Assembly (NCBI RefSeq): GCF_010091945.1
Contig: NZ_WVIE01000009.1
Span: forward strand, 124,001-188,000
Origin: Myxacorys almedinensis A
GTDB lineage: Bacteria > Cyanobacteriota > Cyanobacteriia > Leptolyngbyales > Leptolyngbyaceae
Direction of reading: 5' to 3'
Length of the DNA stretch: 64,000 nt
The position numbers and the translations under genes were made by a program. The notes beneath the pieces are model-generated. The model did no database searches, was not told the origin of the DNA, and saw only the letters and a program-made list of their open reading frames with translations. Positions 37,582 to 61,526 of this stretch are shown here, in pieces; position 1 is the stretch's first letter, and every line of letters begins with the position of its first letter.

Positions 37582-39339
37582 TCAATGAGCCGCGACATAT
37601 TGATGAATTGCATCAAGCCCAACGCGATCGCAAAAGTCACCAAAACTTTCACCCGGTTTTCGATCCTGCTTAAAGTAAGTAAACACTGGCTCAAAAGTAG
37701 TTTCTAGATCATCAATGTTCAGCTTTTCTAGATACACTTTTGCTAGCCGCGTTTGGTTTGGAGCCGCGCCCATCCAAACTTGATAAGTGTTTGGACCATT
37801 TCCCACAAACGCCAACTCTGCCAAATAGGGACGTGCACACCCGTTGGGGCAGCCGGTCATCCGCAGGAAGAAATGCTCATCCGGCAACCCAACTTGATCT
37901 AAAAGCGATCGCACCCGGCTTAAAATGCTGGGCATCACCCGCTCAGATTCGGCGGTTGCTAGCCCACAGGTGGGCAGCGCTGGGCATGCCATCGAATAGC
38001 GGACGAGCGAATCGAGTTTTTTAGGGCGAGCCACTTTTGCGCGATCGAGAATGCCTTGAATCTTGCTTTTATCTGCCGGATCGATATCAAACAAAATGGC
38101 ATCTTGGCTCGGCGTCAGCATGATTGGCAGATTAAATCGCTCGACAATCCGCTTCAGCGCGCTCTTGAGCTTGAAGCCGCCTTCGTCCTTAATTCGCCCG
38201 TTTTGGATCGAAAGCCCTAAAAATAGCTTGCCATCGCCCTGGGGATGCCAGCCCAAAAAATCGAGATATTTCCACTCTGGCAAGGGTTTAGAGGGCGCGA
38301 TCGCTTGACCAAAATACTCTTCGACCTTGGCGCAAAATCGCTCCAGCCCCCAATCGGCGATCAGATACTTCATTCGGGCATGGCGGCGATCACTGCGATC
38401 GCCATAGTCGCGCTGCGTAGCCACGATCGCCTTGACCATATCGTAGACATCCGCTTTGTCAACGTAACCGATCGGATCAGCAAGCCGGGGGAAGGTTTCT
38501 TCTTTATTGTGAGTCCGCCCTAAGCCACCCCCTGCCAACACATTAAAGCCTTCAAGCTCTCCTTGAGCGTTGGTTAGAACCACCAGGGTCAGATCTTGCG
38601 AGAACAAATCGACCGAGTTATCACCGGGAACCGTGACGCAAATTTTGAACTTGCGCGGCAGGTAGTGTGAGCCATAAATCGGCTCGATCGAACCCTCCAC
38701 ATTGCTCCCGTTGATAGTGCGCTTGCGCGCCGCCACCACTTCGGGATCTTCTTCTCCAGAAACCGCTTTCTCGCCGTCTAGCCAAATTTCGTAATAGGCT
38801 CCCGATTGAGGCGTTAGCAGGTCGGCAACATTGTTGGCGTAGGTACGCGCTAGATCGTATTCAGGGCGGTTGCGATAAGGCGCAGCCGGGGACATAACGT
38901 TACGATTGACATCCCCGCAGGCGGTCAGCGTTGATCCTAAATTGTGAACAATCTCAGCGATCGTCTGCTTCAAATTTTTCTTGAGAATGCCATGAAGTTG
39001 AAACGCCTGGCGTGTCGTAATCCGCAGTGTGTGATTGCCATATTGATCCGACAATCGATCGAGGGTTAAATAAAGCTGCGGCGGCACAAAGCCACCCGGT
39101 GTGCGAGTCCGCAGCATCATCGAGTAATCTTTTTCCTGCCCTTTGACGCGGTTATCCCGATTGTCTTGCTGATACGAGCCGTGAAACTTGAGCAGTTGAA
39201 TCGCATCTTCAGTGAAATGGGTTGTGTCAAGCAACACTTCAGACGCGACGGGTTCCCGCAGTAGATTGCTGCGGTCTTTGATGCCTTCAACCTTAGAAGG
39301 CTTTCGGAGTTGGAGGTTTGGCTGTGAAGAAATAACCAT
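37582..39339 (-). CDS. sir: Ferredoxin-dependent sulfite reductase
   Basis: Sir reduces sulfite to sulfide with six ferredoxin electrons using siroheme and a 4Fe-4S cluster. With the ATG at 39339 it has 585 residues; an upstream start ten codons earlier is possible. Visible motifs: [12 protein letters not shown] and [12 protein letters not shown] (substrate/siroheme), [11 protein letters not shown], and the cluster cysteines in ACPALPTCG and [11 protein letters not shown] near the C-terminus. The overall length and C-terminal sequence fit Sir better than NirA nitrite reductase. It is monocistronic, with a strong terminator downstream. Sulfate uptake genes occur 19 kb away in this window. Confidence 0.94.
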
Positions 39340-39995
39340 GAATCTGCTGCGATCGCATAGAGACAACAATTGGTAATCGGCAACCCAATCGACAGATGCC
39401 CATTACCAAAACGAGAACTATTTCCGGTAAATTGGTCGGAATTGTGATGAATACTGTTAGTTTAGCATCCTCTTCTTTCCGACACGAGTTCTTACGAAAC
39501 ATTTCAGAAGTCGCTTTTCTCAGAATTAGGCATAGGTCGATGCTAACAGTAGAGAAAAAGTAGAGAAAAAAGATGCTTCACTTAAGCGAGGTCAGGGTTC
39601 AATGACCAAATGACCACGCCCACGCTAATGCGGATCAAATTGTGATCAAAAGAACATCTTTTTCCATCTCACCTTAGATCCCTTCCAACGCCCATTCCCC
39701 GTACTTAAAAGAATCTAAAGAATTCCCTAACCACGACTTTCATTCCCTAAAGAAATGCTGGGCTGCGATCGCAGCCGCCCAGTTGATACCAAATGAATCT
39801 GTAAATGCTACAGACGTGCGACCTCCCCCAACCCCTCCTCAGTCAGAAGGGGAGCCGAAAAGTCCCTCCTGACCCAAGGGGGTGCCGTAGGCAGGCGGGG
39901 TCGAGGATCTGTCGCAGTGAAAAATCAATTGGGTATGAGATCACTCTTTGATGACATCGATTTTTAGATCAATGCTTCAGTTCTTCTACCGAACG
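39340..39995. other. Spacer upstream of sir, containing a repeat-like element
   Basis: About 650 bases with no supported gene. It should contain the sir promoter near 39340-39480. The stretch 39820-39905 is a pyrimidine/purine alternating element described separately. Confidence 0.45.
39820..39905. repeat. Palindromic C/G-run element, dispersed-repeat-like
   Basis: CCTCCCCCAACCCCTCC, then AGAAGGGGAG, TCCCTCCTGACCCAAGGGGG and GGCGGGGTCGAGG alternate C-rich and G-rich tracts that can pair in several ways. This style matches small MITE-like spacer repeats of filamentous cyanobacteria. Only one copy is in the window. Confidence 0.4.
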
Positions 39996-52643: not shown

Positions 52644-55600
52644 TCAGTTTCGGTCGTTTCCACGCCCTATATCCCCTAGTGCCGCCACGATCGCTTCTGC
52701 CTCTCCGCTAATGCGCCAAAGGGTGCGACTTGCCTCTTTGCTCACCAGTTCATACTCGCCTCGGAACGCTTCGATCAAAACCGGAATTGCCGATTTTGCA
52801 TCGGGACCGATGCAGCCCAACGCATAGGCAGCCACCCAGCGCACCTGCCAATCGTCGTCTCTCAGGGCAGCAGTCAGGGCGGGGATAGCAGGTTTTGCAG
52901 CGGCATTGAAACTAGACAACACCCAGGCAGCAGTGCTGCGAACATAGGCAGGCTGCGATTCTAACGCCGTGATCAAGGCAGGCAAAGCGGCGGTGCCGAT
53001 CTTGCCAAGGGCTGCGATCGCTTCTCCACTCACCCGTCGATCAGGATCGCGCAACCGCTCGATCAACGCTGGAATCGCCATGCGAGCCTCTGACCCAATC
53101 AGCCCGATCGACCAAGCCACTTCTCGACGAATGCGCCAATCTCGATCTTGCAGTTCTCGCACCAGCGCTGGCAACACTCCTTTCGCGGCTGCGCCCAGTT
53201 CCCCTAGTTCTCGAATGGCATCTAATCGCGCGATCGTGTCTCCGGTAGACAAGAGCGGCGTCAACCGGCGCATTCGCTGCTCGACTTGAGACTTTCGTAA
53301 GGTCTCAGCACTTAGCCCCACTCGCTGCCCCAATTCACCCAACACATAATCGGGAATGTCGATTTCTGACCCACGGGTGAGGCAGCAGTCGCGCATTGCC
53401 AAGAGAAAGCCTTGAATGCTCTCTGGTGCGCCAGGCACCGCGTCGGCAAACATCAGCCACTCATCCCACAGCGCTTTATCGCTGCCATACAGATCTACAA
53501 GATGAAGCGCGGCTAAGCATTCGGCAAGCGGATCGAGCGCAAAGCAAATTTGGTCTTGCGCCGGACCGAGTGCTTGCACAACCCGGAGACGTTTTTCTAA
53601 ATGCTTGAGCCGAAGTTTGGCAGATTCTTCCTCGCTGCCAGAGGGCAATTCACGCTGCGAAGCAGACGACGATCGCAGCTTGGCTAAAATGACATCGCGC
53701 TTGGCAGGAGCAGGACGATAGTATTGTTGCAAGCACTCCCAGGCAATAATTTTCGCGTCTTCGTGGACGGTGAGATTGTCTGGCGTATCGTCTGGGGTGT
53801 CGCGATTTAATTCGTTTAAATAGCTCAACATCAAATCGGGAATGTTATCGGGCAATGCACTTTCATCGTTGATGCCTTCTTTTTTGCCGATCATTTGTTC
53901 AGCATAGAGCGTTGCTAACAGCACCGTGATATGACGCTGACCCACCATTTTTGACAGTTGGCTACAGGCATCAAAGTATTCAGAATCGGTGAAGAGTTCC
54001 CGTTTGCTGCGCTGCATCAAGTACGCCTCTAAAAACGAGGATAGGCGATTGCCTTCAATGCGGAGCGGTTTAATCGTGGTTTTGGGCACTTCGTCGAGCA
54101 CTTCTTCTGCCCGCGAGGTGACGATCAGTGCATTTGCTGGAAAGTCTGGGTGCCCAGGGCGAATCTGCTGACGGGTTTCCTCGCTCAGTTCTGACAAGCG
54201 ATCGACAATCACTAAAATGCGACGCTGCCGCAGGAGTTTTTCTAAAAAGTCATCTGAGATCGGCTCTGAAGCATCGATCAGCGCTTGCACTTGTCCGCGA
54301 ATCGCTTCCCTAAACGGATTTTTGCCCTCAGGAAGTTTGAAGTCTAGCTCTTGCTCGATCAGCACAGGCAACATGCGGTGATGGCAAAGCCGATGAGATT
54401 TTTGATCCGCCATTGCCCATTTTGCCAGGTGACACGCCAAGCTGGTTTTCCCGATGCCCCCTTCGCCCCAAATGAGCAGACACTGCCGCCCGTCCCAAAA
54501 GGTGGTGTGTAGATCGTTGTTGGCAAGTTCTGGAACGGTGTTGCCGTTTAAAACGACGGGAATGGGGATGTAAACCTTGCGATCGCTGACCGTGTTTTTA
54601 TGGGCAAAGCCTTCTCGCGCTCCGGCAATCTGCTGATTGACCCAGGCATCGAGTACCCTGGGATGATAGTGAAACCAGCCAACAAACAAGACAAACCGCA
54701 ACGGAACTTTGATGCTGTTGCCCATGGGAATGGGAATTTCAAAGTCGGTATAGGGCTGGAGGGCATTGTTGAGTTTCAGCAGCCATGAGGGGCGCACCAG
54801 CAACAGGGCAAACCAGAGGCTAGGCATGCCCACGAGATAGAGCAGCGCCCCCGCGATCGCCGGGTTTGCCTGCCCCCACTCAACCACGCGCTCAAACGGG
54901 CGAGAGTCTTTTTCGTTTTTGAGAACGCTGATCGAGCGGCGCACCGAGATCACCAATTCTTCATTGAGTCGAGCGCTGGGATTTTCCAACAGCGGCAACG
55001 CACCTTCTAACGTGGTGTACGCCGTGTAAATCTCGACGACAGACAGAGAAGGCGCTTTATCTTGCAGACTAGCGGCAATCAACCGGAGCGCATTGGCAGC
55101 ACCCAGCCGCACTTCGGAATTTTCATCGCTCAGCAGTTTGACTAATTCAGGCAAAGCGTTTTGTGCCTCTAGCCCTATGCGTCCTAATGCCGTTGCAGAT
55201 TGCAGCCGCACATCTTTTTCGGGGTCGGGCAGCGCTTTAGTCAGGTCGGGAACGGCGGCTTTGGCGGGGCTGCCAACTCTGCCTAATGCGATCGCAGCAA
55301 AGGCGCGCGTTCTACCATCGGCGTGGCTCAGCGCCCGCACAAGTTGAGGAACGGCTGGACTTGCTTCCGCTCCAATACTGACGAGGGCGCTCGCTGCCTT
55401 GAGCCGAATATCGGTGTTAGCGTCGCTGAGCGCTTGGGCCAGAAAGGGGGTGGCTGATTTGGCATCGGCTCCTAGTTTGCCGAGGGCGGTAATGGTGGCG
55501 AGGCGCACGTCTAGCTCTGCCGTTGATAACGCCTGAATCAGTTCTGGAATGGCTGGCTTTGCGGCAGTTCCTAAATTAGAAATCGCGTCGATCGCCGTCA

Positions 55601-56153
55601 CCCGTACCGCTTTGCTAGGATCATCGAAGGCTTCGATCAAGCTCGGAACGGTGATCTCTGGAAAACTGCTCAGGCTGCCCAGGGCACGAGCCGCCGCAAC
55701 ACGCACCTCTTCATCATCATCTTTGAGGGCTTTTACTACGTCAGGAACAGCGGCTTTGGCAGCAGCACCGATCTTGGCTAAGGCATCTAGGGTAGCAATC
55801 TGAAGGACTTTTTGCTTAGCCGTCGTTCCTTTTGCAAGGGTAGAAACGGCGGGTCTAGCATCGGCTCCTAACCGACCGAGAGCCGCGATCGCGCCTAACC
55901 GCACAGACAGCTTTTCTTTGTCATTTTTGAGCAGGGTAATCAATTCTGTGATCGTCGGCGCATCTGGCTTGCCCACCAAAGCTGTAGTAGTTTTGGGTGC
56001 TTGACGGTTTACCTGTTGCCGCAGTTGGGCAGACACCTCGATCGCATCGGCTCTTTCGCTGGTGTCGCGGTTGGGTGGATGCACGATCGCAGAGGCACAG
56101 AGGAGGCTGATCTGACATGCCAGCAAGAAAAGTTGTCGGTTACGCACTGTCAT
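52644..56153 (-). CDS. Large membrane HEAT-NACHT-HEAT protein
   Basis: The 1169-residue protein starts with a hydrophobic segment (about 7-25), then about eight HEAT repeats (65-362, for example VRVAAARALGSL, VRLATITALGKLGADAKSA), a membrane helix (431-453, ALLYLVGMPSLWFALLLV), and a P-loop NTPase domain of NACHT/STAND type. Walker A is IWGEGGIGKTSLA (561-573), and Walker B-like is ILVIVDRLSE. A second set of about five HEAT repeats (980-1160) ends the chain. Predicted topology puts the first HEAT block outside the membrane and the NTPase plus second block inside. The role is unknown; STAND proteins often act as signalling or defence switches. Confidence 0.88.
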   Translation of the reverse strand: MTVRNRQLFLLACQISLLCASAIVHPPNRDTSERADAIEVSAQLRQQVNRQAPKTTTALVGKPDAPTITELITLLKNDKEKLSVRLGAIAALGRLGADARPAVSTLAKGTTAKQKVLQIATLDALAKIGAAAKAAVPDVVKALKDDDEEVRVAAARALGSLSSFPEITVPSLIEAFDDPSKAVRVTAIDAISNLGTAAKPAIPELIQALSTAELDVRLATITALGKLGADAKSATPFLAQALSDANTDIRLKAASALVSIGAEASPAVPQLVRALSHADGRTRAFAAIALGRVGSPAKAAVPDLTKALPDPEKDVRLQSATALGRIGLEAQNALPELVKLLSDENSEVRLGAANALRLIAASLQDKAPSLSVVEIYTAYTTLEGALPLLENPSARLNEELVISVRRSISVLKNEKDSRPFERVVEWGQANPAIAGALLYLVGMPSLWFALLLVRPSWLLKLNNALQPYTDFEIPIPMGNSIKVPLRFVLFVGWFHYHPRVLDAWVNQQIAGAREGFAHKNTVSDRKVYIPIPVVLNGNTVPELANNDLHTTFWDGRQCLLIWGEGGIGKTSLACHLAKWAMADQKSHRLCHHRMLPVLIEQELDFKLPEGKNPFREAIRGQVQALIDASEPISDDFLEKLLRQRRILVIVDRLSELSEETRQQIRPGHPDFPANALIVTSRAEEVLDEVPKTTIKPLRIEGNRLSSFLEAYLMQRSKRELFTDSEYFDACSQLSKMVGQRHITVLLATLYAEQMIGKKEGINDESALPDNIPDLMLSYLNELNRDTPDDTPDNLTVHEDAKIIAWECLQQYYRPAPAKRDVILAKLRSSSASQRELPSGSEEESAKLRLKHLEKRLRVVQALGPAQDQICFALDPLAECLAALHLVDLYGSDKALWDEWLMFADAVPGAPESIQGFLLAMRDCCLTRGSEIDIPDYVLGELGQRVGLSAETLRKSQVEQRMRRLTPLLSTGDTIARLDAIRELGELGAAAKGVLPALVRELQDRDWRIRREVAWSIGLIGSEARMAIPALIERLRDPDRRVSGEAIAALGKIGTAALPALITALESQPAYVRSTAAWVLSSFNAAAKPAIPALTAALRDDDWQVRWVAAYALGCIGPDAKSAIPVLIEAFRGEYELVSKEASRTLWRISGEAEAIVAALGDIGRGNDRN

Positions 56154-56814: not shown

Positions 56815-57990
56815 CTAAGATTCGCCAGAAGGGGTAGCAGCGTGAATTAGATCTGGCGGCTGCTGAGCAGGAGGACGCTCAATGATTTGATCCCCGGCAG
56901 GACGGCGATCGCGATCAAGCGGCTCAAGCTGAACAAAGTCGCCCGTCTCGATCGAGTGGTAAAGGGCACGAATAATCCGAACATCGATCAACCCTTCTTT
57001 TCCAGACGGTTCTGGGTCTCTGTTCTGTAAAATACAGTTTGAGAAATAAACAAACTCTGCGGCAAGCTGATCGTGGGATTCAAACGATCGCTCTTCTTTC
57101 TCGCCCTTGATCGTCAGGGTGTGAGTAATTTCACCTTGAGCACCATACGCTGGATCAACCTGCAAATCGCCCTTTGTCCCTACGATTTGATAGTTTGAGA
57201 CCTTTGCTGCTCCGAAGCTACAGGTAAACGTTGCGAGGCGTTCGGCATTGCTGCCCGTTGAGGAATTACCAGGAAAGCGCAAAATGGCGCTGGTCATTTC
57301 TGCCACTTCTTGAAATCGTTCCTCTCCGTTGGTTGCACGGGTCGCAAAAACTGCGATCGGCTCATCTTGAAACAAATAACGAGCGGCATTGATGCAGTAA
57401 ATTCCAATATCATCCAAAGTGCCGCCGCCTTTTTCCTCTTCAAGCCGAATGTTGCCTTCCTCAACTTGCTGAGTAAATACTGAATTGAAGATGCGCGGCT
57501 CACCAATTTGGCGCGATTTTACAACTTCAACTGCCTGCATATTTGCTTCTTCTAAATGGAGGCGATAAGCAATCATCAGTTTCACACCATTGCTGTTGCA
57601 CGCAGAAATCATCTGCTCGCACTCGGCTTCTGTCACGGCCATCGGCTTTTCACACAGCACATGAATGCCTTGATTAGCGGCTCGTACCGTGTATTCGCAG
57701 TGCAGATGGTTGGGTAGCGCAATGTAAACTGCATCTACGTTGCCGCTTGTTAAACAATCCTCATACTCTCCGTAGGAATAGGTATGCTGCACGCCATATT
57801 CTTGGCTAAGTTCCTTTAGCTTGGTAGGGTCACCAGAAACTAGCGCCGTCAATTCTGAGTTTTCCGCTTGAGCAAAGGCTGGCAGTGCGGAGGCTTGAGC
57901 AAACCAGCCCAACCCAACCACAGCATACCGAATTTTACGATCGCTACTATTTTGACTGGTTTGGTTGTTGTTTGTATTTGATGAGGTCAT
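56815..57990 (-). CDS. Gfo/Idh/MocA family oxidoreductase
   Basis: The 391-residue protein has an N-terminal Rossmann domain with YAVVGLGWFAQASALPAF near 22-39, IALPNHLH near 92-99 and the hallmark CEKPMAV near 114-120 with the catalytic Lys, and a C-terminal substrate-binding alpha/beta domain. It resembles glucose-fructose oxidoreductase relatives that use NADP and sugar substrates. The first 19 residues and the Pro-rich last 35 are unconserved. It is divergent from sbpA with a 525-base spacer. Confidence 0.92.
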   Translation of the reverse strand: MTSSNTNNNQTSQNSSDRKIRYAVVGLGWFAQASALPAFAQAENSELTALVSGDPTKLKELSQEYGVQHTYSYGEYEDCLTSGNVDAVYIALPNHLHCEYTVRAANQGIHVLCEKPMAVTEAECEQMISACNSNGVKLMIAYRLHLEEANMQAVEVVKSRQIGEPRIFNSVFTQQVEEGNIRLEEEKGGGTLDDIGIYCINAARYLFQDEPIAVFATRATNGEERFQEVAEMTSAILRFPGNSSTGSNAERLATFTCSFGAAKVSNYQIVGTKGDLQVDPAYGAQGEITHTLTIKGEKEERSFESHDQLAAEFVYFSNCILQNRDPEPSGKEGLIDVRIIRALYHSIETGDFVQLEPLDRDRRPAGDQIIERPPAQQPPDLIHAATPSGES

Positions 57991-58097
57991 TGAACTGTCT
58001 CCACGTCGCTTTATCTAAATCGAGTATTTGGTTTATCAAGCAAGTAATTAGTTATAGATGCCTATGGTTAGGCTCGAATGAGTGCGCTTTGCTTTAT

Positions 58098-58131
58098 CCG
58101 CGATCGCAAGGCAATATGGATGCGATCGCGG
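58098..58131. repeat. HIP1-HIP1 hairpin
   Basis: CCGCGATCGCA at 58098-58108 pairs with TGCGATCGCGG at 58121-58131, an 11-base-pair stem around AGGCAATATGGA. No gene ends nearby, so it is not an obvious terminator. Confidence 0.7.
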
Positions 58132-58471
58132 GTAATGTCTGTTGAGTGTCATCAAGCCCTTGTTTATGAGGCAGTTTCTACATCCTTGAGTGTAAGAAGG
58201 GCAGCATGTCGCATCTTCAATCAATAGGGGTAGATTCAGAGGGGAGATTTCGCCTCAAACATCTTCGTAGTTTGCAAACCGTAAGTTTCCCAAATCTTCT
58301 AGAGTTAGCGTTGCTTGATAAATTAAACCCTTGAGTAAATGCTCGATTAAACAACATCCGACTCTGCTGCTGATCTCAGCAATAGCTTAAACCCCCATAA
58401 ACCGAGCAAGAAGCAGGAGTATTTCCTTGCAGTTTGCAGAATTCCCCAGTAGGATTGATAAGCAATCATAA

Positions 58472-58497
58472 TACGGTAATTACAGCTACTTACCGTA
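58472..58497. promoter_or_regulatory. Operator-like palindrome in front of sbpA
   Basis: TACGGTAA, a ten-base spacer, TTACCGTA is a perfect eight-base inverted repeat, ending 18 bases before the sbpA ATG and overlapping the presumed leader. It could bind a sulfur regulator of CRP or LysR type. The identity of the regulator is not known from this window. Confidence 0.55.
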
Positions 58498-58515
58498 GTT
58501 TAAGGGAGAGAGACC

Positions 58516-59664
58516 ATGCAGTTGAGGCAAAATATTGAAAGACAATGGATAGGCTTTCGGGCAGGCGTTGCCCAGGCTTACCAAACGGTGTTGGGGCGAC
58601 GGTCAGTGAGAAATTTTGTTGCGCTGTTTTTCCTTGGGGCAACCTTGAGTGTTGCGATCGTAGCGTGTGGAAACAATAATGCCTCTACATCTACCGCTCC
58701 GGGAGGCGCTAGCCCTGTTGCAAGCACCGGTAGAACCGCAGAACTTACCCTCGTAGCCTACGCCATTCCCAAAGCAGCACACGATGCCATCATTCCAAAA
58801 TTTGTGGAGCAGTGGCGGCAAGAAAAAGGTCAGACCGTCATCTTTGTGCAAAGTTACGGCGGCTCTGGTTCCCAAACTCGCGCCGTGATTGATGGGCTAG
58901 ACGCTGACATCACCCACTTGGCACTCTCCGCTGATATTGAAAAGCTGGCTAAAACAGGTCTCGTTAGTCAAGATTGGGCAACCAAGGTTCCCAATGGTGG
59001 AACGGTCGCAAAAACAGTGGCAGTGATTGTTGTGCGCCCTGGCAATCCTAAAAACATCAAGTCGTTTGCGGATTTGGTACGAAGCGACGTGAAGTGGGTC
59101 ACAGCCGACCCAAAAACGTCTGGTGGCGCACGGTGGAACTTTATCGCACTGTGGGATTATGCTCTAAAAACAAACGGTAATGATGAAGCAAAAGCGCGGG
59201 AATTTGTGACCCAAGCCTACAAAAATATCGCGGTACTCTCTAAAGATGCACGAGAATCAATGGATGCATTTTCAAAACAGGGTCAGGGGGATGCTTTAAT
59301 CAACTATGAGAACGAAGTGATTTTGGCAAACCAGAAAGGCGAAAACCTTGACTATATCGTGCCAGATATCAACGTTTCGATTGATACGCCCGTTGCGATC
59401 GTGGATAAAAATGTAGACCGACATGGAACCCGTGAAGTGGCAGAGGCATTTGCCAAATTTCTCTTCACCCCAGAAGCGCAAGCAGAATTCATCAAACTCG
59501 GATACCGTCCCCTTGATGAAGCCACTGCAAACCAAAAAGAAAACGTCGATAAATACCCACCTATCAAGACGTTAACAACAATCAAAGACTTCGGTGGCTG
59601 GGACGAAGTAGAGCAAAAATTCTTTGAGGACGGTGCAATTTTTGATCAGATTCGCGGCGCTTAA
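58516..59664 (+). CDS. sbpA: Sulfate-binding protein of the sulfate/thiosulfate ABC importer
   Basis: The 382-residue periplasmic protein has a long N-region and hydrophobic signal (VALFFLGATLSVAIVACG, Cys near 51 in a lipobox-like IVACG), then LTLVAYAIPKAAHDAIIPKF and QSYGGSGSQTRAVIDGLDADI, and the family's VTADPKTSGGARWNF region, a mark of sulfate-binding proteins. AAGGGAGAGAG precedes the ATG. It is first of sbpA-cysT-cysW and is probably induced by sulfur starvation through the upstream palindrome. Confidence 0.94.
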   Translation: MQLRQNIERQWIGFRAGVAQAYQTVLGRRSVRNFVALFFLGATLSVAIVACGNNNASTSTAPGGASPVASTGRTAELTLVAYAIPKAAHDAIIPKFVEQWRQEKGQTVIFVQSYGGSGSQTRAVIDGLDADITHLALSADIEKLAKTGLVSQDWATKVPNGGTVAKTVAVIVVRPGNPKNIKSFADLVRSDVKWVTADPKTSGGARWNFIALWDYALKTNGNDEAKAREFVTQAYKNIAVLSKDARESMDAFSKQGQGDALINYENEVILANQKGENLDYIVPDINVSIDTPVAIVDKNVDRHGTREVAEAFAKFLFTPEAQAEFIKLGYRPLDEATANQKENVDKYPPIKTLTTIKDFGGWDEVEQKFFEDGAIFDQIRGA

Positions 59665-59749: not shown

Positions 59750-60634
59750 ATGACTTCTGCCCAAGGCACACCCGAAACCGTTTCCAAGGGGAACTTCTTG
59801 ATACGATCGCTAACTCAGATGCCGTGGACATGGCGGATCATGCTGGGCTATCTAACCGTCATGCTGCTGCTGCCTACCTTGGCGATGTTTTTAAGGGCGT
59901 CTACGGTCGGTCCTGCCCAATTTTGGAGCATTGCCACAAGCCCAGTAGCCTTGGCAACTTACGACATTACGTTCACCACCTCTGTGATTGCAGCCTTGGT
60001 GAATGGCATCTTTGGGACACTGATCGCTTGGGTACTGGTGCGCTACGACTTTCCCTTCAAGCGCATCATTGATGCCTCGGTCGATTTGCCGTTTGCACTT
60101 CCTACCTCAGTCGCCGGATTGACCCTAGCAACCGTGTACAGCGACAACGGCTGGATCGGTTCGCTCGTTGCCCCCTTTGGGATCAAGATTGCCTTTACAC
60201 GTTTGGGCGTTGGCATCGCCATGGTCTTTATCTCGCTGCCGTTTGTCATCCGCACTGTGCAGCCTGTGTTGGCAGAAATGGAAAAAGAAGTAGAGGAAGC
60301 CGCTTGGAGCCTTGGTGCTTCTTCGTGGCAAACGTTTCGGCGGGTGGTGTTGCCGCCGTTGATGCCGGCTATTCTAACAGGCGTTGCCCTAGGGTTTTCA
60401 CGGGCAGTGGGTGAGTATGGCTCGATTGTGATTATTTCATCCAATACACCATTTGCAGATCTGATCGCGCCAGTGTTGATCTTTCAGCGACTAGAGCAAT
60501 ACGATTATGCAGGTGCGACTGTGATTGGTGTGGTGCTATTGCTGATCTCGCTGGTGATGTTGCTTGCAATTAACTTTCTGCAAGCCTGGGGTCGGCGATA
60601 TGAAACGGGGTTGGGCAAAATGCCTGGACATTGA
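59750..60634 (+). CDS. cysT: Sulfate ABC transporter permease CysT (CysU)
   Basis: The 294-residue membrane protein has six helices and the EAA loop [19 protein letters not shown] near 183-201. Its sequence follows CysT closely ([39 protein letters not shown]). It forms the channel with CysW. It starts 85 bases after sbpA. Confidence 0.95.
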
Positions 60635-60665
60635 GCAGCCTTTGATCTTAGGAGAACAAACAGAA

Positions 60666-61526
60666 ATGAGTACGATCGCACCTTCGCCCCGTCTAGTGAA
60701 ACGAGCCGATGCCAAGCGCAAGAGTTGGGTTCCGACTTTGCTAATTGGCATTACGATCGTCTATCTGGGTCTGGTGCTGTATATTCCTGCGGCAAATGTT
60801 TTTTATCAAGCCTTTAAAAACGGAATTGGTCCATTTATAGAAAACCTGACCCAGCCTAATTTTATTCAGGCGGTGCGGCTGACGGTAATGCTGGCTGCGA
60901 TCGCAGTTCCGTTAAATACAATTTTTGGCTTGTGTACCGCTTGGGCACTGGCACGGCGGCAATTTCGAGGGCGGTCGTTTATGTTGAGTCTGATCGATCT
61001 TCCGTTTGCAATCTCACCGGTGGTCGCAGGGTTGATGTTGGTGTTGCTGTATGGGCGGCAAGGGTGGTTTGGCGATGTTCTTCAATCGAACAATATTAGA
61101 ATCATCTTTGCGTTTCCAGGCATGGTGTTAGCCACGATGTTTGTGAGTATGCCGTTTGTGGCACGAGAAGTGATTCCAGTGCTAGAAGAAGCAGGAGCCG
61201 ATCAAGAAGAAGCGGCACAAACCTTAGGGGCAAATGGTTGGCAGACGTTTTGGCGGGTGACGTTGCCCAGTATTCGCTGGGGCTTGCTCTATGGCTTAAT
61301 TCTGACCAATGCAAGGGCAATGGGTGAGTTTGGAGCGGTTTCGGTTGTCTCTGGTAATTTATCAGGTAAAACCCAGAGTTTGCCGTTGTATGTAGAAGAG
61401 GCTTACAAGCAGTACGAAACCGAAGCTGCCTATTCTGCGGCAGTGTTGCTTGCCTTGCTTGCGGTGGTGACGTTAGTGCTGAAGGAAATTATGGAACGCA
61501 AAACCCGGATTAAAGAGGTGGAGTAG
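60666..61526 (+). CDS. cysW: Sulfate ABC transporter permease CysW
   Basis: The ATG at 60666 (AGGAG 13 bases upstream) gives 286 residues; the open frame extends 34 codons upstream into cysT and is not used. Six helices, with IDLPFAISPVVAGLMLVLLYG and the EAA loop QEEAAQTLGANGWQTFWRVTLP, and NARAMGEFGAVSVVSGNLSGKTQSLPL, the CysW signature. It is last in the cluster; cysA, the ATPase that powers the complex, does not follow. Confidence 0.95.
   Translation: MSTIAPSPRLVKRADAKRKSWVPTLLIGITIVYLGLVLYIPAANVFYQAFKNGIGPFIENLTQPNFIQAVRLTVMLAAIAVPLNTIFGLCTAWALARRQFRGRSFMLSLIDLPFAISPVVAGLMLVLLYGRQGWFGDVLQSNNIRIIFAFPGMVLATMFVSMPFVAREVIPVLEEAGADQEEAAQTLGANGWQTFWRVTLPSIRWGLLYGLILTNARAMGEFGAVSVVSGNLSGKTQSLPLYVEEAYKQYETEAAYSAAVLLALLAVVTLVLKEIMERKTRIKEVE

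Follow-up and report, generated by a model that had tools for sequence, protein, structure and literature searches.

Sequence comparison identifies a 33-bp element upstream of the sulfate-uptake genes of Myxacorys almedinensis A as the operator of a sulfur regulon, and the copy described here is one unusually symmetrical instance of an operator that is widely conserved. The conservation of the element, its spacing, its position after predicted promoters, the membership of the regulon and the unbiased pairing of the dyad all point to an operator. The best candidate for its binding protein is probably the Rrf2-family regulator that is encoded next to cysK and ends in -MYYI, as suggested by the linkage of rrf2 to cysK, by this tail and by the presence of the element in rrf2 promoters. 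On balance, we consider it likely that an Rrf2 dimer represses sbpA-cysTW, cysA, sir and rrf2-cysK through the operator, with CysK and O-acetylserine providing the signal.

The operator upstream of sbpA

The window, by which we mean the whole 64-kb stretch of DNA analysed, contains on its plus strand a left arm TACGGTAA (58472-58479), a 10-base spacer TTACAGCTAC (58480-58489) and a right arm TTACCGTA (58490-58497), all three read directly from the sequence; the G at 58495 is invariant in 55 aligned sequences. The perfect 8-base inverted repeat reported by the first-pass annotation at 58472-58497 is thus present exactly as described, and the reported distance of 18 bases (58498-58515) to the ATG of sbpA at 58516 is also borne out. 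The exact repeat pattern occurs only once in the 4.96-Mb genome. It is contained in the 33-bp element AATACGGTAATTACAGCTACTTACCGTAGTTTA (58470..58502, plus strand), which is followed by a likely Shine-Dalgarno sequence, AAGGGAG (58502..58508, plus strand), and by the genes, in this order and on the same strand, for the sulfate ABC transporter substrate-binding protein SbpA (58516..59664; TIGR00971, 270 bits, cut-off 155.5) and the sulfate permease subunits CysT (59750..60634; TIGR02139, 413 bits) and CysW (60603..61526, start codon uncertain; TIGR02140, 392 bits). On the minus strand, the window also encodes a large protein (52644-56153) in which, as read by eye, HEAT-like repeats flank an apparent NTPase region.

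A search for sbpA in 97 genomes, including that of M. almedinensis, gave matches at E <= 0.001 in 86 of them, and 70 upstream regions of strong matches were used to build a motif. An iterated weight matrix converged on one gapless 33-column motif in 65 of the 70 regions, with a consensus near AATACGGTATTCCGACYGANTAACCGTAGATTA; the element scores at least 20 in 61 of the 70 (59 distinct sequences, the window copy included), and both counts include the sequences from which the matrix was built. Two of the five regions outside the motif (L013, L037) are at contig ends and have hardly any sequence upstream. The window copy fits the gapless family alignment (A1), with a weight-matrix score of 29.9 and, in a search of its own genome with model R1, 20 bits (E 0.004), although it belongs to the sequences from which the matrix, the alignment and R1 were made. 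A later set of 80 named loci, three of which were dropped for too little upstream sequence, provided 60 usable sbpA loci (from L241 on), mostly of Nostocales according to their titles. Of these, 54 score at least 15, as opposed to none of 308 coding-sequence windows; two of the 54 matches (L259, L277) are over 400 bp upstream and may represent something other than the site of sbpA. Because a few of the 60 genomes were already in the first set (e.g. L243, L246, L256), this second set is nearly, not wholly, independent. In many of the Nostocales (L241-L302), the sbpA element is less symmetrical, for example ATAACTGTATTCCCATCAATTATCTGTAGATTT, and its arms form almost a direct repeat.

The spacing was also examined without any matrix. 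Among 30 perfect TACGGTA-N2..30-TACCGTA sites in the 97 genomes, 16 have a spacer of exactly N12 (counted by eye); since a reversed control pattern is commoner in total, only the spacing, and not the total, is informative.

Upstream of the element, a promoter scan predicted a -35 box, TTGCAG (58427..58432, plus strand), whose TTGC recurs in relatives, and a -10 box, TAGGAT (58450..58455, plus strand), 17 nt after the -35 box and 16 nt before TACGGTA. Such pairs count as predictions because the scan prefers promoter-like hexamers. Transcription would accordingly start near 58462, and the operator would then span about +10 to +36, so that a protein bound there would stand in the way of RNA polymerase. 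The same arrangement appears to be common, as the element lies 15-19 nt after the predicted -10 box in 43 of the 58 sbpA regions with a promoter-like pair. The first-pass annotation had proposed a site for either a repressor or a starvation-dependent activator of sulfate uptake; a control site for sulfate uptake is supported by the comparisons, and of the two modes, its location just after the predicted -10 box speaks for repression. A second block, ATAAACCGAGCAAGAAGCAGGAGTATTTCC (58397-58426), lies upstream of the sbpA -35 box and is weakly to moderately conserved in sbpA promoters of the same family; it is possibly an activator site.

Other genes preceded by the element

Model R1, a sequence-only model of 55 sequences, has four matches in the M. 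almedinensis genome at E <= 10, and the best three precede sbpA, cysA and sir. The cysA match scores 15 bits (E 0.15), and the identity of cysA is supported by TIGR00968 (437 bits). The element before sir is a second, weaker copy, TCATCACAATTCCGACCAATTTACCGGAAATAG (39418..39450, minus strand; weight-matrix score 14.5; R1 11.8 bits, E 1.6), upstream of the gene for ferredoxin-dependent sulfite reductase (37582..39339, minus strand; TIGR02042, 997 bits). The fourth match (10.2 bits, E 5.4), near genes that by eye encode citrate synthase and an NdhA-like protein, looks like a chance occurrence. At sir loci across genomes, the element recurs: 29 loci, our own included, had enough upstream sequence (one more was dropped), and the element scores at least 14 in 20 of them, compared with none of 87 coding windows; all but one of the remaining nine score above zero. 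A search for the same motif at sir and other sulfur genes, suggested earlier as a check, therefore turned out positive at cysA and sir of M. almedinensis itself, at the sir loci and in relatives.

At E <= 0.1, R1 matches 77 of the 97 genomes, and in relatives the element precedes cysA, cysT, cysH, cysK and genes for rhodanese, sulfonate uptake, sulfatase and regulators. To catalogue the targets, we took 40 stretches among the matches listed and a dozen loci given directly, mostly other than sbpA, which yielded 47 first open reading frames (ORFs) after leaving out duplicates, five sites with only ORFs under 85 codons and seven sites without an ORF; for L077 and L089, the ORF counted is a NIL-domain protein. 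Among the matches listed, 25 of the 47 encode sulfur proteins or Rrf2, as judged by family or resemblance: seven CysA-type ATPases, four rhodaneses, three Ssu/NMT1-type binding proteins, two sulfatases, two CysT-type permeases, two Rrf2 proteins and one each of Sir, PAPS reductase, chromate transporter, TauE and sulfate-binding protein. The ABC-type names have NCBIfam support at L073, L092 and L126 and otherwise rest on Pfam and sequence resemblance. Five more of the 47 among the matches listed are NIL-domain proteins, and at three the likely target is on the other side of the site (cysK, a CysR-like gene and a sulfonate-type ABC-transporter operon). The remaining 14 among the matches listed have no evident sulfur role: UPF0182, an SCO4226-like protein, an aldolase, a carbonic anhydrase, a trypsin-like protein, OprB, two BLH phosphatases, two proteins of unknown function, an amylase, a 2-hydroxyacid dehydrogenase, a LysR-NMT1 protein and a short-chain dehydrogenase.

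The NIL-domain proteins, of about 95 amino acids, follow the operator in five genomes (L179:2665-2946, L089, L113, L117, L118), and a conserved-looking protein of about 430 amino acids with no confident Pfam family follows it in two (L125:1426-2700, L137:428-1750). A protein of about 140 amino acids without a Pfam match adjoins an Rrf2 gene (L183:5476-5901).

An Rrf2 protein encoded next to cysK

The M. almedinensis genome has two Rrf2 genes. The product of one of them, P0001, belongs to the Rrf2 family (PF02082, 118.6 bits; TIGR00738, 108.7 bits, cut-off 73.3) and ends in -MYYI; its gene (C1:150364-150813) precedes cysK by about 165 bases, both being on one strand. In 30 loci, our own included, 27 Rrf2 proteins were identified by the search string; all 27 end in -MYYI, and in 25 cases cysK is close by on the same strand. 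A looser search recovered the tail in 28 of the 30 loci, and MYYI is invariant in the protein alignment (A4). Among proteins of solved structure, those closest to P0001 in sequence are 4cic (82 bits), with the same MYYI ending, and CymR 2y75 (61 bits). IscR carries a cysteine triad as ligands of its [2Fe-2S] cluster. By sequence, the cysK-linked Rrf2 proteins lack this triad: cysteines common to all 28 of them are found only near positions 8 and 86, and an alignment of 23 Rrf2 sequences has no invariant cysteine column.

A variant of the element with a sequence near ACCTACAAAACCCTAGTGGAAAACCGGAGTATA also occurs in the rrf2 promoters themselves, where it is recognizable by eye in all 27 examined, 26 of which, our own included, are shared with the set of 27 proteins above. 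When scored, 22 of the 27 reach at least 5 (1 of 108 controls) and 14 reach at least 8 (0 of 108). The rrf2-cysK site of M. almedinensis scores only 4.5, in a range where at least 4 is reached at 9 of 128,000 window positions and at least 2 in 4 of 108 controls. For second Rrf2 paralogs, which often belong to sulfur islands, 10 of 20 upstream regions have a site scoring at least 15, compared with none of 124 controls. The only other genome of this genus in the set (G001, L186:12632-13801) encodes two distinct Rrf2 proteins with the -MYYI tail in adjacent genes, close to which there are sites, indicating expansion of these paralogs.

The motif is found in 75 of the 89 genomes with a close Rrf2 (E <= 1e-30) and in two of the eight without one, but it also tracks sbpA (74 of 82 genomes with the gene, 3 of 15 without), and these co-occurrence tables, with thresholds that we chose, are confounded by phylogeny and by the presence of sbpA. 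The two genomes with the motif and no close Rrf2 are G031 (95% complete) and G034 (69% complete); in another 14, which do encode a close Rrf2, the motif has no match at E <= 0.1.

In plasmid pANL of Synechococcus elongatus PCC 7942, an Rrf2 gene whose product ends in -MFYI lies inside a sulfur island (L323:24420-43308) with two cysK genes, epsC, the srpI encapsulin gene and genes for a cysteine desulfurase and a chromate transporter. The 46-kb plasmid has only three sites scoring at least 6 (9.1-9.7), all of them in the island, whereas five shuffles gave none or one each; one site directly precedes rrf2, and the others precede the carbonic anhydrase gene after rrf2 and a DUF4242 gene that heads a transporter cluster. 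To judge by the title of a 1995 study by Nicholson and Laudenbach, genes on a cyanobacterial plasmid, which we take to be pANL, reportedly respond to sulfur and CysR. On a Pseudanabaena plasmid, cysK-cysE-rrf2 follow a site scoring 27.6; in two other plasmid Rrf2 regions (L325, L326) there was no site near Rrf2.

Alternative explanations

The first-pass annotation regarded so long and perfect a repeat as unlikely to arise by chance. Perfection and length do not carry that argument: the window has 33 raw and 21 distinct perfect 8-base inverted repeats with spacers of 4-20, five mononucleotide shuffles of it have 6-19 raw ones each, and only two of the 59 distinct sbpA elements have perfect 8-base arms. 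With 21 distinct repeats of this kind in 64 kb, the palindrome alone is weak evidence and might be a chance occurrence without function, yet this reading is contradicted by the conserved position, spacing and sequence of the element across the class, which is where the original claim does hold, and we consider its probability negligible. A functional repeat could still act as RNA, either as a leader hairpin that affects translation, as had been suggested, or transcript stability, or as an unknown riboswitch. In most sbpA leaders, the element indeed stands in a single orientation downstream of the predicted promoter and ahead of the start codon, the window copy can form an 8-bp stem, the outer pairs of the element covary, and double-sided changes exceed those in shuffles (13 cells versus 6.0); however, a DNA dyad explains such changes equally well, so they are no signature of RNA. 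An RNA stem should favour G-U, whereas a DNA dyad makes no distinction between G-U and A-C, and among the non-Watson-Crick cells G-U and A-C are equally frequent (25:21, 23:24 and 12:13 in three site sets, as raw tallies over related sequences uncorrected for kinship), with no G-U excess over independence, which argues for DNA. In addition, Watson-Crick pairing is only 61% in the later sbpA set, the region 57900-58700 has no Rfam match up to E 1, folding is unremarkable (z -1.41), and at genes other than sbpA the distance from the site to the first ORF ranges from about 0 to 350 bp, with many sites well upstream of the start codon and at least one between divergent genes. All this makes a hairpin acting on translation, or any other RNA reading, very unlikely. 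A pseudoknot between the loop and the Shine-Dalgarno sequence was considered and dropped, the loop sequence not being kept in the window copy and its nearest matches.

If the element is an operator, it could be bound by a protein other than the cysK-linked Rrf2. The Crp-type regulator CysR, as repressor or activator, is an obvious candidate, being a known sulfur regulator in Synechococcus 7942 according to the available part of one report (PMC12016511). CysR-like genes adjoin sites in several genomes (L077, L102/L103, L134, G079, G012, G061), and there is a weak co-occurrence, with the motif in 53 of the 60 genomes that have a CysR-like protein (Fisher p 0.009). Nevertheless, the motif is present in 24 of the 37 genomes in which no CysR-like protein reaches E <= 1e-24, and a number of these have it at sbpA (e.g. 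L010, L012, L016, L022, L026, L028), so CysR seems not to be required. Furthermore, the 26-bp dyad is longer than a classical Crp site, and a position just after the -10 box is unusual for an activator. CysR, which the first-pass annotation had named for binding assays together with LysR-type proteins, is therefore disfavoured, and we regard it as a distinctly improbable binder. Alternatively, some other DNA-binding protein, for example of the LysR type, might occupy the element, the Rrf2 gene being merely a member of the regulon. The binding of Rrf2 is deduced from sequence; two sulfur islands (L183, L184) have a LysR-type gene adjacent to cysA, and in L135 a site is followed by a LysR gene. 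These three loci were the only ones in which LysR genes were noticed in a casual reading, whereas 89 of the 97 genomes encode a close Rrf2 and the rrf2 promoters carry the element; a binder of this other kind appears unlikely.

Proposed mechanism

We infer that the cysK-linked Rrf2 protein is the binder, that it acts as a dimer and as a repressor, and that CysK and O-acetylserine are the signal. The dimeric repressor with its -MYYI tail would bind the 26-bp dyad just downstream of the sbpA promoter and, at about +10 to +36, would block transcription of sbpA-cysTW as long as sulfur is plentiful; through variant sites it would also control its own rrf2-cysK operon together with cysA and sir. CysK would take hold of the C-terminal tail of Rrf2, as CymR of Bacillus suggests by analogy, and stabilise the repressor on DNA. 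When sulfide is short and O-acetylserine accumulates, the complex of Rrf2 and CysK would fall apart and the uptake genes would be derepressed. Repression under sulfur sufficiency fits both the position of the site and the starvation induction of these genes in Synechocystis, where sbpA-cysTWA is stated to rise on sulfur starvation (PMC2491639, available part).

A broader version of this proposal is an ancient switch for sulfur starvation, widespread among cyanobacteria, in which CysK, bound to the -MYYI tail of Rrf2, senses O-acetylserine and controls a large regulon for sulfate and sulfonate uptake, sulfite reductase, sulfatases and rhodaneses, with CysR and plasmid sulfur islands such as pANL as later layers under the same operator; we see the chances of this as even. 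The analysis suggests that cyanobacterial Rrf2 proteins of the -MYYI, cysK-linked type govern sulfur uptake. The sensing of sulfur limitation in most cyanobacteria seems to be poorly described, and an operator, a list of its regulon and a candidate repressor encoded beside cysK allow the question to be tested directly in laboratory strains.

Comparison with known systems

In titles and abstract openings, our literature search recognised no cyanobacterial description of this operator or of an Rrf2-cysK sulfur regulon; most subscription papers and RegPrecise lay outside its scope, and an earlier description is possible. The one regulator of sulfate uptake that it found is CysR of Synechococcus 7942, a member of the Crp family that, in the text available, is likewise described as controlling cyanobacterial sulfate uptake genes (PMC12016511) but differs in that the element occurs in many genomes without a CysR-like protein (the 24 of 37 above). 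For photosynthetic sulfate transport, a control motif, TAAWATGATT, has been proposed at plastid cysT/cysA (PMC3773388, in the part available); it resembles the element in its proposed role but consists of one box and has a different sequence.

IscR and Slr0846, the latter presumably of the Rrf2 type, belong to the same superfamily as P0001, but P0001 scores lower with IscR (73 bits) than with CymR (98 bits). Slr0846 is listed as IscR and 'not studied' in a 2020 review, as far as its available text goes (PMC7058544).

The closest parallel is CymR-CysK of Bacillus subtilis and Staphylococcus aureus, in which an Rrf2 protein without the IscR cysteine triad is likewise linked to CysK, has a C-terminal tail and targets sulfur assimilation. 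According to the accessible portion of PMC11487621, the repressing complex of B. subtilis consists of CymR and CysK, and the C-terminus of CymR has been modelled as an anchor in CysK. The CymR equivalog model NF047409 is the best-scoring equivalog for P0001 and matches positions 2-139 of 139, but the score of 98 bits is below the curated cut-off of 195, so we do not file P0001 as CymR. The CymR site of B. subtilis cysK, the one site compared, matches our motif no better than shuffles do (132 of 500 reach its score), and a similarity of the two operators was accordingly rejected as not significant. In contrast to the CymR system, the cyanobacterial targets include sulfate ABC transport, ferredoxin sulfite reductase and sulfonate uptake, and the regulon contains second Rrf2 paralogs and CysR-like genes. 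To judge by its anatomy, P0001 may nevertheless work like CymR.
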